Assembly (NCBI GenBank): GCA_022447095.1
Contig: JAKUUP010000003.1
Location: 1 to 64,000, forward strand
Reading direction: 5' to 3'
DNA from: Candidatus Thalassarchaeum betae
GTDB lineage: Archaea > Thermoplasmatota > Poseidoniia > Poseidoniales > Thalassarchaeaceae
DNA length: 64,000 nucleotides
Position 1 is the first letter of the stretch, and each line of letters begins with the position of its first letter. Position numbers and translations under genes: made by a program. Shown in pieces: positions 29,294-33,496 of this stretch. The notes beneath the pieces were generated by a model. The model did not search any database. It was not told the origin of the DNA and saw nothing but the letters and a program-made list of their open reading frames with translations.

Positions 29294-30280
29294 TCAGTTC
29301 CGTCTGACCACTTGGTAGATGATGAAAAGTGAAAGTAATGCTATTGCTATCCAGCGCCGGTCGAATTCATTCGCTGCATCTTCATCGTGAGACACGAATA
29401 GTTCCTGAGCAGTATCCAGAGGAGGGGAATTGTCCGAAGCCATCAACACGATTCCTTCTATGTGGTAGGGGGCGCCACCCCTCATGCCCTTGGAAACCGC
29501 CTTTGCGTTTGTCATAGAGGCCATTACGAAGTCGCAGGTGTCGGCCCTTCTGAGATCCTCAACAGCCTCGAATTCGCCACCGCTGTTCCAAGTCCTGAAT
29601 TCAATCCCTCGGTCCACTGAATAGTGGCTCTCCATCCGACTTACGACCATTCTGGAAATCTCGACCTCGTATCCCTCCATCTCAGCACTCTCGTCCAGTT
29701 TCGACATCGGCGAGCCCTGATCATACATACAGGCCACCATTTCCTTTTCGCCCTCTATTATACGATGGAGGGTGCCGCCCTCAGTAGGGGTTGGCCAATC
29801 GCCCATTACACTGGAGAAATCGGAACCCTTCAGTTCGGTCTCCCCGTGGAACCATGCCATGTATGCTTGCTGGCCGGTGCTTGATGAGAATACCTCCTCT
29901 AGAGCGGCGGAGATAGCATCGAGGAGTTCGGTGTTCCCCCTATCGTCCTGAGTATCGGTACGCACCACCGGAACATACGATTCGGTCTCCTCAATCATCT
30001 CGATGATGTAGAGGCCGGGCATATTGTCAGTGTTAGCCGGATCGGCAGCGATGAGGTGAGAAGTCAGCATGAAATCTTCTTCTCCAGACATCAAGGCACG
30101 CATGGCGAGCTGATGGTCCTCGTAGCCGTTTTCGATTATGTGCCCGTAAGAGCCGATTAGATGCGATACAGGTGTCTCCTGAGAGGAAGCGACGTTGTAC
30201 TGTACCCCTCCTAATGCTACTATGGGAGTTGCCGACAGAACCAATGCACTGAGGAAGAGTGCGAACTTCGCGCTCCTCAT
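29294..30280 (-). CDS. Membrane-anchored solute-binding-like protein, lobes in permuted order
   Basis: 328 residues with a signal peptide (FALFLSALVLSATPIVALGG) and a C-terminal membrane anchor (IAIALLSLFIIYQVV). Residues ~170-290 resemble the first lobe of family 3 (polar amino acid) binding proteins: GTLHRIIEGEKEMVACMYDQ, EGYEVEISRMVVSRM, ADTCDFVMASMTNAKAVSKGM. Residues ~30-155 resemble the second lobe that normally comes after it: LAMRALMSGEEDFMLTSHLI, SYVPVVRTD, ELLDAISAALEEVF, AYMAWF. So the usual lobe order appears reversed. It is divergent from the permease gene at 30341 and is presumably the receptor of that ABC transporter, held at the membrane by its own helix. Fold assignment is by eye; the transporter context supports it. 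Confidence 0.72.
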   Translation of the reverse strand: MRSAKFALFLSALVLSATPIVALGGVQYNVASSQETPVSHLIGSYGHIIENGYEDHQLAMRALMSGEEDFMLTSHLIAADPANTDNMPGLYIIEMIEETESYVPVVRTDTQDDRGNTELLDAISAALEEVFSSSTGQQAYMAWFHGETELKGSDFSSVMGDWPTPTEGGTLHRIIEGEKEMVACMYDQGSPMSKLDESAEMEGYEVEISRMVVSRMESHYSVDRGIEFRTWNSGGEFEAVEDLRRADTCDFVMASMTNAKAVSKGMRGGAPYHIEGIVLMASDNSPPLDTAQELFVSHDEDAANEFDRRWIAIALLSLFIIYQVVRRN

Positions 30281-30329
30281 GCACGCGAAGGCCCGAGGGG
30301 CCGACTTAGCATTGGCGGTCCGCCGAGAC

Positions 30330-30334
30330 TATAT
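30330..30334 (-). promoter_or_regulatory. TATA-like box in the divergent transporter promoter
   Basis: TATAT, about 50 bp before the binding-protein ATG (30280), in the 60-bp gap between the divergent transporter genes. It is only 10 bp from the permease ATG at 30341, so if it also serves that gene, the permease would start further inside, for example at TTG 30368. Confidence 0.4.
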
Positions 30335-30340
30335 CCGAAG

Positions 30341-32659
30341 ATGCACGTCAGAAGCCGGGGGTTCGCGTTGTCAGAGGCTGTCTCAAGAGTGCTCAACCCT
30401 CTGGGGAAGAAGAGTAATCGTCTAGTCGCAATCCTATCGTTTGTGATCCTCATCACTCTGATTACTCCTACCCAAGCGGTCGATTACAACAGCGGTTGGG
30501 ATGTCGCCGACAGTGGTACTGAAGTGGACCTCTTCACGGCGGCCTACGATGGTGAATCGGTCTTTGCTTTCGGTGCTGGAGGGGTGATTCTCCAAAGCGC
30601 CGACAAGGGCGCCACATGGGTGCAACTGGATTCACCTGCTACGACCAGCCTGCATGCGTCAGACTCTGTCGAAGGCGCAATCGCGGTAGTCGGAGAGGGA
30701 GGAGCGGCTTTCCTGCGTGCTGCTGGCAGCGATACATGGCTGGACATCTCCCTGAACCCGCCCGTCGACTTCAGGGGAATGGCGATGACCAGCGCTACTT
30801 CACTGGTCGCCGTAGGCCCTGAAGGGGGCGTCTGGCAATACTCTAGCGATGCTTGGATGCAAAGGGATTCCGGAGTAGTCACAGATCTCAACGATGTGTC
30901 CTTCCTCGATTCCACCCTAGGGATGATAGTGGGAGACAGCGGCACCATCCTTGCTACCAATGACGGAGGCGAAAGTTGGGAGTACAGGGAGGCCCCGGAA
31001 GGGTTGGTTGCGGACATAGTAGCACTCGATTATTACAGTAACATCAGGGTATATGCGGTAACGGACGAGGGGAACATCCTAAAATCGGTTGGAACGACTA
31101 CTGGCACCGCGGCCGGTTATGTCTGGGAACTAGTCGAGATTGAATCGGCGGGCAGAGCCACCAGCCTAGGATTAGAGTTGAGTTCCATTGACGTATCATC
31201 TGTGAACAAGTTACTCGTCTCAGGCCCCTCAAGCTACGTTGCTCTGTCGCTAGATGGAGGCAACATCATCACCTCTCAGATGAACCCACTACCTAGCGTC
31301 AAGGACTTCAATCACGTCTTGTTCCTCAATCTGTTCGATGCAGTAATTGTAGGTGCTGATGGAGTTATATTATTTTCAGAAAATGCCGGAGAGGACGAGG
31401 CGATTGGATTTCAGGTAATCGATTACGGCGACTTCGGGCAGTTCGTCGACTACTCAAAGGGAATGCTGATTGATGGGCTATTCGCGACTATCAGAATTGT
31501 TCTATTCGGAATCTTCCTTGGTTTCTTCCTCGGTGTCATACTCTCGATGATGAAGACCGCCCCCACTACCCTGAAGGATGTTGCACAACTCGATAGATAC
31601 TCTATAATCAGAATAATTCTAATCCCATTATGTATCATTGAGGCTGCCATTCCTTTCATTCGATTAAATGAGAAATCGTGGTCTGCAACAAGAGCAGTAG
31701 GGAGGTTGCGTACTCTGTCCGCCACTTCTACGAGACCGCTCAACACCCTAGCCCTGAGGGCACTGGGATTGGGGATGCTATACTACGGGATTTCGCTGAT
31801 TTTCGCTTTAGCTCCGATAGTTTGGGCCCTAAATCTGGACGGTTTGGAATACATCTACGCGCCTATAGGCCTCATATCTCCGGATGGTATCAATGGAGAG
31901 TTATATTTCGAGAACTTTTTCCAAGCCCTACTTGGTATTGCGTTGATCCTGTTGGGCCTACTGTTCCTGACCTCGAGGAAATTCTTCCTCAAGAGAGAGG
32001 TGCGCCTGCCGTTCCGCGACATCACGCTAAAGTGGAATTTCTGGGGAGTGAGGCCGTTGAACGCTGTCGCAACCGTATACACCGACCTCTTTCGCAATAC
32101 TCCACTGATTGTTCAGTTCATGTTCATACACTTCGGGGTGCAGTTTGGCAAGTTGTTGGGAGATCCGGCTGCGGCAATCCTTGAGGGTGAAACGAATTCC
32201 TTCCTAGTATACATCAGAGACACGATTCTATCAGACAGGGCATGTGTTAGCGCCATCTTCGCTCTTGGCCTGAATTCAGGAGCATATCAGTGCGAGACGA
32301 TACGTGGTGCTATCGCAGCGATTCCCTCTGGCCAGATGGAGGCGGGCAGGAGCATTGGACTGAATTATATGCAGACGATGGGGCTGGTCATCATGCCTCA
32401 GGCAATCAGAATTTGCATACCTCCTATGGGTAATGAAATGGTCAACCTCGTGCTCAACTCATCACTCGCAATGGTCATCGGCTATGCTGAACTAACTAGA
32501 AAGGGACGGCTAATCAACGCCGTTACCTTCCAACTCTTCTGGGGTTATGGCATGGTACTGGTATCTTACTTCGTTGTAACTTGGACGCTGGCTCTGCTCT
32601 TGAGGCATCTCGAGAACAAGTCGAGGATACCTGGACTTGGAATTTCAGGGGGTGCATGA
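30341..32659 (+). CDS. ABC amino-acid-type permease fused to an extracytoplasmic YCF48/BNR-like propeller
   Basis: 772 residues. A signal/anchor helix (AILSFVILITLIT, ~28-46) leads into ~300 residues of propeller repeats with Asp-box-type turns (SADKGATWVQL, ATNDGGESWEY, GMIVGDSGTIL). Membrane helix DGLFATIRIVLFGIFLGFFL (~378-400) matches the first helix of HisM/GlnP-type permeases. The rest of that domain resumes only at YTDLFRNTPLIVQFMFI (~580) and includes the ATPase-coupling EAA-type loop AAIPSGQMEAGRSIGLN (~660-680). Between them about 170 residues carry three further hydrophobic segments, where normal family members have ~20-30 residues. A polar amino acid or similar solute is the expected substrate. 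The ATPase gene follows with no gap. ATG 30341 or TTG 30368 may be the start. Confidence 0.88.
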   Translation: MHVRSRGFALSEAVSRVLNPLGKKSNRLVAILSFVILITLITPTQAVDYNSGWDVADSGTEVDLFTAAYDGESVFAFGAGGVILQSADKGATWVQLDSPATTSLHASDSVEGAIAVVGEGGAAFLRAAGSDTWLDISLNPPVDFRGMAMTSATSLVAVGPEGGVWQYSSDAWMQRDSGVVTDLNDVSFLDSTLGMIVGDSGTILATNDGGESWEYREAPEGLVADIVALDYYSNIRVYAVTDEGNILKSVGTTTGTAAGYVWELVEIESAGRATSLGLELSSIDVSSVNKLLVSGPSSYVALSLDGGNIITSQMNPLPSVKDFNHVLFLNLFDAVIVGADGVILFSENAGEDEAIGFQVIDYGDFGQFVDYSKGMLIDGLFATIRIVLFGIFLGFFLGVILSMMKTAPTTLKDVAQLDRYSIIRIILIPLCIIEAAIPFIRLNEKSWSATRAVGRLRTLSATSTRPLNTLALRALGLGMLYYGISLIFALAPIVWALNLDGLEYIYAPIGLISPDGINGELYFENFFQALLGIALILLGLLFLTSRKFFLKREVRLPFRDITLKWNFWGVRPLNAVATVYTDLFRNTPLIVQFMFIHFGVQFGKLLGDPAAAILEGETNSFLVYIRDTILSDRACVSAIFALGLNSGAYQCETIRGAIAAIPSGQMEAGRSIGLNYMQTMGLVIMPQAIRICIPPMGNEMVNLVLNSSLAMVIGYAELTRKGRLINAVTFQLFWGYGMVLVSYFVVTWTLALLLRHLENKSRIPGLGISGGA

Positions 32660-33496
32660 ATGCCGGGGAATGTGTTGAGTGTCACTGACATGCACAAGAT
32701 CTACCCCGGAGGGGTCCATGCCGTCCGAGGCATCTCGTTCGAGGTAAACGAAGGGGAATCTGTAGCAATCATAGGGTCCTCAGGAAGCGGTAAGTCGACT
32801 GTTCTGCGATGCATCAACCGACTAATCGAACCCACCGAAGGAGTCGTGCGTCTGCGCGGCGAACACATCAACACCCCCGGGGCCGATATCAACGATGTCA
32901 GATCGAGAATTGGGATGGTTTTCCAGTCATTCGAATTGTTTGCACACCTGAAGGTCATCGACAACGTGACACTAGGTCTGAGACATGTCAGAAAGATGAG
33001 CAAGAACGAGGCCAAAGAGATAGCGATGTCCGCTCTTGAGCGTGTTGACCTTCTTGATCGAGTTGATGCGTACCCCGGAAATCTCTCTGGTGGACAGAAG
33101 CAAAGGGTAGCCATCGCCCGGGCTCTCGCGATGCGTCCCGAGGTTATGTTGTTCGACGAACCGACCAGCGCCTTGGACCCCGAACTGATAGGCTCGGTCC
33201 TAGCTACCATTAGAGGACTGGCTGACGAGGGCATGACGATGGTGATCGTAACTCACGAAATCAGTTTCGCAAGGGACGTTGCTGACCGCATCATCTACCT
33301 AGACGAGGGGGTTGTGGCCGAGGAGGGGCCCTCATCAATCATAGAGGAACCCCGGACTGAACGGCTCAAGAGGTTCCTGTCCTCGATACACGAAGATGAG
33401 GTCCCAGAGCAAATCCACGAAGAATTGGTGGATGAGGATACTGATTATGGATACGTTCCTGATGGTAGAGGAGAACGGCCACGTGGAGGCCGCTGA
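32660..33496 (+). CDS. ABC transporter ATP-binding protein, polar amino acid type (GlnQ/HisP-like)
   Basis: Energises the permease encoded directly upstream; its start codon follows the permease stop with no gap. Complete nucleotide-binding domain: Walker A GSSGSGKST (about residue 40), Q-loop MVFQSFELFAHL, signature LSGGQKQRVAIARAL, Walker B VMLFDEPTSALDPE, H-loop VTHE. The FQ-F-LF-HL pattern is typical of the GlnQ/HisP subfamily. The last ~35 residues are an acidic extension (EDEVPEQIHEELVDEDTDYG) beyond the core. Confidence 0.95.
   Translation: MPGNVLSVTDMHKIYPGGVHAVRGISFEVNEGESVAIIGSSGSGKSTVLRCINRLIEPTEGVVRLRGEHINTPGADINDVRSRIGMVFQSFELFAHLKVIDNVTLGLRHVRKMSKNEAKEIAMSALERVDLLDRVDAYPGNLSGGQKQRVAIARALAMRPEVMLFDEPTSALDPELIGSVLATIRGLADEGMTMVIVTHEISFARDVADRIIYLDEGVVAEEGPSSIIEEPRTERLKRFLSSIHEDEVPEQIHEELVDEDTDYGYVPDGRGERPRGGR

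Follow-up and report, generated by a model that had tools for sequence, protein, structure and literature searches.

A YCF48-type beta-propeller fused to a GlnP-type ABC permease in Candidatus Thalassarchaeaceae and other archaea, with circularly permuted binding proteins beside it

The window analysed here, a 64,000-nucleotide stretch of a Candidatus Thalassarchaeum betae contig (JAKUUP010000003.1), encodes a beta-propeller of the YCF48 type in one chain with the permease of an ABC importer. A survey of archaeal genomes for the same fusion, as had been proposed in a preliminary description of this DNA, found it in Thalassarchaeaceae, in Marine Group III (MGIII) and in four metagenome-assembled genomes (MAGs) of the class Heimdallarchaeia. 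At every comparable locus the propeller coincides with circular permutation of an SBP_bac_3-type binding protein.

The propeller-permease gene

The fusion gene (30341-32659, + strand) reads in the window as a single frame of 772 codons with no internal stop, and its 772 aa product runs from a signal anchor through a seven-bladed YCF48-type beta-propeller to a GlnP/TcyL-type ABC permease. Orthologues align from a TTG at 30368 and not from the ATG at 30341, so that the TTG is possibly the true start. A TATA-like ACTATATCC lies upstream of this TTG at ~30327-30335, and in the stretch 30281-30367 the divergent annotated starts are 60 bp apart. The N-terminal signal anchor (30416-30481, + strand, residues ~26-47) has a hydropathy of 2.13 at residues 29-47, and the AlphaFold2 model places a helix at 24-40.

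The propeller (30479-31408, + strand, residues ~47-356) matches the Pfam family PSII_BNR/YCF48 (PF14870) at E 3.6e-12, scoring 46.6 bits (cut-off 27), and the NCBIfam Ycf48 model at 6.6e-12; the similarity asserted in the preliminary description is thus clear in domain searches. Compared with solved YCF48 sequences, the best match is 5ojp (E 1.5e-10). The AlphaFold2 model has a pLDDT of mostly 84-94 over residues 47-356, lower near 250-285, and in our reading of its strand list the fold has seven blades, the last of which is closed by the first strand. Foldseek returns YCF48 (2xbg) as the top match of this model at E 7e-15, and VIA-align gives a Z of ~30 over 280 residues against seven-bladed propellers. 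Taken together, the sequence, the model and the fold matches identify the fused N-terminal domain as a propeller and not as a substrate-binding domain. In the 21 genomes tested PF14870 matches only the fused gene, wherever any match occurs. These archaea are not known to have a photosystem.

The first permease helix region (31442-31570, + strand, residues 368-410) was placed by an alignment of relatives, in which FVDYSKxMLxDGLxATxKIVxFGIxLGFxLG is conserved, and it aligns with the N-terminal helix of a compact permease. It is followed by an insert of hydrophobic helices (31571-32044, + strand, residues 411-568) that varies in length and is found only in fusions of the window's lineage (MGIIb), those of MGIII and Heimdall genomes being without it. 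The core BPD_transp_1 membrane domain (32045-32638, + strand, residues 569-766) matches PF00528 at E 1e-13 over residues 571-759. NCBIfam TcyL/GlnP models match the permease at 1e-34 to 1e-36, below their equivalog cut-offs, while TIGR01726 is above its cut-off and the permease belongs to the HEQRo/GlnP BPD_transp_1 group. AlphaFold2 predicts the membrane domain poorly (block pLDDT ~31-76). The PF14870 and PF00528 matches bear out the central claim of the preliminary description, namely that a signal-anchored, extracytoplasmic YCF48-type propeller precedes the first helix of a GlnP/HisM-class permease in one chain. A GlnQ-like ABC ATPase (32660-33496, + strand) starts directly after the fusion stop; the GlnQ model matches it at 1.8e-83, below the equivalog cut-off, and this gene adjoins the fusion in all 20 MGIIb relatives.

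Permeases of this class had been described as normally consisting of the membrane domain only. This has to be amended, since GlnPQ permeases carry N-terminal extracytoplasmic binding domains (PMC8025302), but the kind of domain found here is new. Shared by the two systems are a permease of the GlnP type, an extracytoplasmic domain that lies N-terminal to the first transport helix, an ATPase of the GlnQ type and a receptor of the SBP_bac_3 class. Unlike in GlnPQ, the fused domain here is a YCF48 beta-propeller, and the receptor is separate, membrane-anchored and permuted. With the photosystem II assembly factors YCF48/HCF136 (PF14870; 2xbg, 5oj5) the propeller shares its seven blades and Asp-box-like repeats; unlike them it is part of an archaeal transporter chain, and only the fused form occurs in the archaeal genomes tested.

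Distribution of the fusion

A match to the fusion at 1e-50 or better is present in 86 of 148 Ca. Thalassarchaeaceae (MGIIb) genomes, covering 6 of 11 genera, and genomes of the other family of the same order gave no fusion match. The fused frame is whole in 19 of 20 MGIIb relatives, where it measures 682-863 aa, and the twentieth is cut by a contig end. A phylum-wide search showed that MGIII genomes carry the fusion in frames of 613-620 aa, with the three-gene module of fusion, ATPase and binding protein located at L170 and L211-213. The matches listed in a contig scan also include Heimdallarchaeota RS678, CSMAG_823 and archaeon Dive100_bin10.34, and there may be further distant fusions beyond these. 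A class-level search placed these three genomes in one class and added a fourth fusion genome (G514). All four carry the module known from MGIII, except that in G514 the contig is short and no ATPase could be read on it. Only these four of the 227 genomes searched in their phylum have the fusion; the others have a bare permease or no match.

The CSMAG_823 fusion (L173:2695-4424) contains a TGA between propeller and permease, and this copy could be a pseudogene, a split gene or an assembly error. That interruption is the one point we can name on the side of an assembly artefact or a chance joining of two genes, for which we otherwise found nothing in favour. The frame is intact in 19 MGIIb relatives, in MGIII and in three separately assembled Heimdall MAGs, which leaves this explanation with negligible probability, and the recurrence rules out both an artefact and a frameshift in the window.

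Propellers of the different lineages are homologous, with ~25-34% identity and E values of 3e-11 to 3e-50. Conservation between lineages falls mostly on structural Gly and Trp; in the cross-lineage alignment no shared docking patch is visible and no conserved pocket could be shown. In a maximum-likelihood tree built from membrane-domain sequences, permeases with the propeller lie on one side of a branch, requiring a single label change; this branch is weakly supported (77/35, 74% of bootstraps). Within the tree RS678 clusters with MGIII and MGIIb at 98/97 and the other three Heimdall-class sequences cluster at 100/99; the nearest permeases outside the fused set are unfused ones of Asgard archaea. 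A single origin of the fusion, followed by transfer, is likely.

Circular permutation of the binding proteins

The gene at 29294-30280 (- strand), transcribed divergently from the fusion, encodes a 328 aa protein with an SBP_bac_3-type match (7.3e-9), circular permutation and degenerate ligand motifs. The C-lobe half comes first in the chain (29825-30199, - strand, residues ~28-152), and its residues 35-144 align to AncQR 129-231 and to HMM 167-259. The N-lobe half comes last (29411-29770, - strand, residues ~171-290), with residues 191-285 aligned to AncQR 22-106 and HMM 34-107, and has the canonical Arg replaced (MTNAKAV). A C-terminal membrane anchor (RRWIAIALLSLFIIYQVVRRN; 29300-29356, - strand, residues ~309-327) is conserved in the alignment and lies in a helix (299-327) of a low-confidence model, though it is below the hydropathy threshold. 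The AlphaFold2 model of the whole product has a mean pLDDT of 49.7; its Foldseek matches have low TM-scores and are mostly LysR-type regulators, and we dropped the model as evidence of permutation.

An Arg of the N-lobe and an Asp of the C-lobe hold the alpha-amino-acid ligands of SBP_bac_3 receptors. Motif positions in the family of the window's protein (P0002) were set by comparison with the MGIIb lipoprotein described below and with the MGIII and Heimdall proteins. By this comparison the Arg of the MTKTxER motif is absent from all ten aligned family members and the Asp of the GD motif from nine of ten. The preliminary description had regarded the product of 29294-30280 as the binding protein and as a possible partner of the fusion. 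It is of the SBP_bac_3 type but not an ordinary receptor, being permuted and having lost the usual ligand residues, and in 9 of 20 MGIIb relatives the fusion has no such gene beside it.

We scored permutation by the order in which the two halves match an HMM built from 29 bacterial binding proteins. At all readable fused loci the adjacent SBP_bac_3-type proteins are permuted, with the C-lobe half first and with two breakpoints. The halves of the MGIII proteins have i-Evalues of ~1e-14 to 1e-17; in L213, for example, HMM 143-256 (i-E 3.7e-15) precedes HMM 18-139 (6.9e-17). The Heimdall proteins of L172, L173 and L237 have their halves in the same swapped order. One breakpoint, near HMM 130-140, is found in MGIII and three Heimdall MAGs, and the other, near HMM 224, in RS678. 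Unlike its Heimdall-class and MGIII relatives, the RS678 binding protein (L171:1458-2450) has just its final helix transferred to the start of the chain. When sequences were rotated the halves did not merge into one HMM match, as a signal peptide and an anchor come between them; the evidence for permutation is therefore the order of the halves and not a gain in score. The adjacent permuted proteins of MGIII and Heimdallarchaeia keep both the MTKTxxR and the GD motif.

At unfused loci the order is normal in each of the 16 cases that have a binding protein (eight Asgard, five other Thermoplasmatota and three MGIIb Aap loci). A C-terminal anchor is present in all six unfused Asgard normal-order proteins that were checked, which means that tethering by itself is not accompanied by permutation. 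Permutation has been connected with tethering in a published proposal on TpMglB-2, the glucose-binding protein of Treponema pallidum, which is naturally circularly permuted, membrane-tethered and of type Ic / cluster Bc (PMC4990184). Natural permutation of a membrane-tethered ABC substrate-binding protein is common to TpMglB-2 and the proteins described here. TpMglB-2 is however a type I/cluster B sugar binder with no propeller reported, whereas we find an SBP_bac_3 fold, three breakpoints and an adjoining propeller-fused permease; because the unfused Asgard relatives are tethered and not permuted, tethering alone is insufficient as a cause here.

In the permuted MGIII and benthic Heimdall proteins the anchor follows a YYSSKQGIL-type strand and in RS678 an FGIGVRE strand, which we take to be the two hinge strands, lying side by side. 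We infer that in the permuted protein the chain passes from the fold into its anchor at the hinge between the lobes. A tandem binding protein that could represent an intermediate of permutation was not found in the loci examined, where the only candidates were normal-order paralogues in large cysteine-repeat proteins. Two such loci, L215:3-2678 (- strand) and L216:2535-6140 (+ strand), encode large secreted proteins in which SBP_bac_3 domains of normal order are embedded; these proteins also repeat the motif FVCDNGEEIPASWxNDGExDCxDGSDE, which is similar to the class A repeats of the LDL receptor.

A third breakpoint, near HMM 80, occurs in an MGIIb lipoprotein of ~1050 aa that is unlinked to the fusion. 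In this protein a permuted SBP_bac_3 domain, which keeps both ligand motifs (MTKTxER-type and GD), is followed by two LivK-like domains that we assigned by reading the sequence. The copy in the window's own genome is cut by a contig end (L114:6545-8620, G000:C16), and a full copy is found at L121:5886-9041. The lipoprotein adjoins a LivH-LivM fused frame of ~1250-1300 aa, which rules out that it serves the propeller permease exclusively. The fusion and the permuted lipoprotein domain occur together in 71 genomes, the fusion only in 15, the domain only in 7 and neither in 55 (Fisher p ~1e-18, a value inflated by shared ancestry and also affected by the incompleteness of genomes). The permuted domain of the lipoprotein would be the likelier receptor in the window's lineage.

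A proposed importer and its alternatives

The reading that we favour, and to which we give about an even chance, is that of an importer of polar amino acids whose propeller takes the place of the GlnPQ binding domains and acts as a docking platform for a hinge-tethered, permuted binding protein. As the module has a single permease gene, the permease would probably form a homodimer, and on its outer side the propeller would occupy the position of the binding domains fused to GlnP. The membrane-anchored, circularly permuted SBP_bac_3 protein would bind an amino acid and, with its anchor leaving at the inter-lobe hinge instead of at the end of the N-lobe, dock on the propeller-topped permease, and the GlnQ-like ATPase would drive import. 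In the window's lineage, whose adjacent permuted protein lost its ligand residues, delivery has probably passed to the SBP_bac_3 domain of the unlinked lipoprotein. Docking of the receptor on the propeller would be the simplest explanation for the coincidence of propeller and permutation. Among the functions that the preliminary description had suggested for the propeller, docking of the binding protein would thus be the likeliest, and a substrate funnel or docking to the cell surface is more speculative. A bolder version, in which a propeller collar and a repeatedly rearranged, hinge-hung receptor co-evolved into a distinct mechanism, the module having moved between Heimdallarchaeia and planktonic Thermoplasmatota, is in our view possible though doubtful.

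Just as tentative is the idea that the permutation is unrelated to the propeller and hitch-hikes with it in one ancestral operon. The fusion and the permutation may each have arisen once and on the same branch of the tree (77/35), a single origin of each that would put their association beyond statistical test; but the second breakpoint in RS678 and the third in the MGIIb lipoprotein imply that rearrangement recurred in carriers of the fusion, with a permuted outcome every time. It is somewhat less likely that the propeller serves assembly, stability or attachment to the surface (S-layer or glycoprotein), with no role in substrate transfer. YCF48 is itself an assembly factor whose type of propeller mediates protein contacts (PMC8038367), and conservation limited to structural residues across lineages would agree with such a role, yet it leaves unexplained why permutation is found beside fused and not beside unfused permeases, and the module encodes no surface partner.

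We consider it improbable that the propeller is the receptor itself and passes a captured ligand on to the permease, for instance a peptide, much as YCF48 binds the D1 tail, with the adjacent binding protein on its way to being lost. The propeller does occupy the place of the receptor in GlnPQ, there is a crystal structure of YCF48 with a D1 peptide (5oj5), and in MGIIb the propeller stays where the adjacent protein is without ligand residues or, in 9 of 20 relatives, gone. This is opposed by the ligand motifs retained in the adjacent proteins of MGIII and Heimdallarchaeia, by the permuted domain kept elsewhere in most fusion-bearing MGIIb genomes, and by an alignment in which no conserved pocket could be shown.

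The same archaea also have Aap-like general amino-acid importers (L243-L245), which have two permeases of unusual length (525-629 aa) and a normal-order receptor of 388-412 aa. Long permeases with inserts and an SBP_bac_3 receptor are common to both systems. Unlike the propeller system, the Aap-like importers have two separate permease genes, a receptor in normal order and no propeller, and they are distant in the tree. In the open-access literature we found no description of an ABC permease joined to a propeller, and the words "propeller" and "permease" are both absent from the main text of a survey of archaeal fusions (PMC11237513). YCF48, GlnPQ and natural permutation of binding proteins are each known; their combination was nowhere found in that literature.

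ABC importers of the GlnPQ class are textbook examples whose set of components is regarded as settled; the version in these abundant ocean archaea adds a propeller and a rearranged receptor. It raises the testable question of whether the position of a tether, together with the domains on the channel, can determine how the chain of a binding protein is arranged. In this archaeal family, receptors of the aapJ and livK types are reported to belong to the most highly transcribed genes (PMC9723583), so the propeller importer may matter for the turnover of carbon in the ocean.
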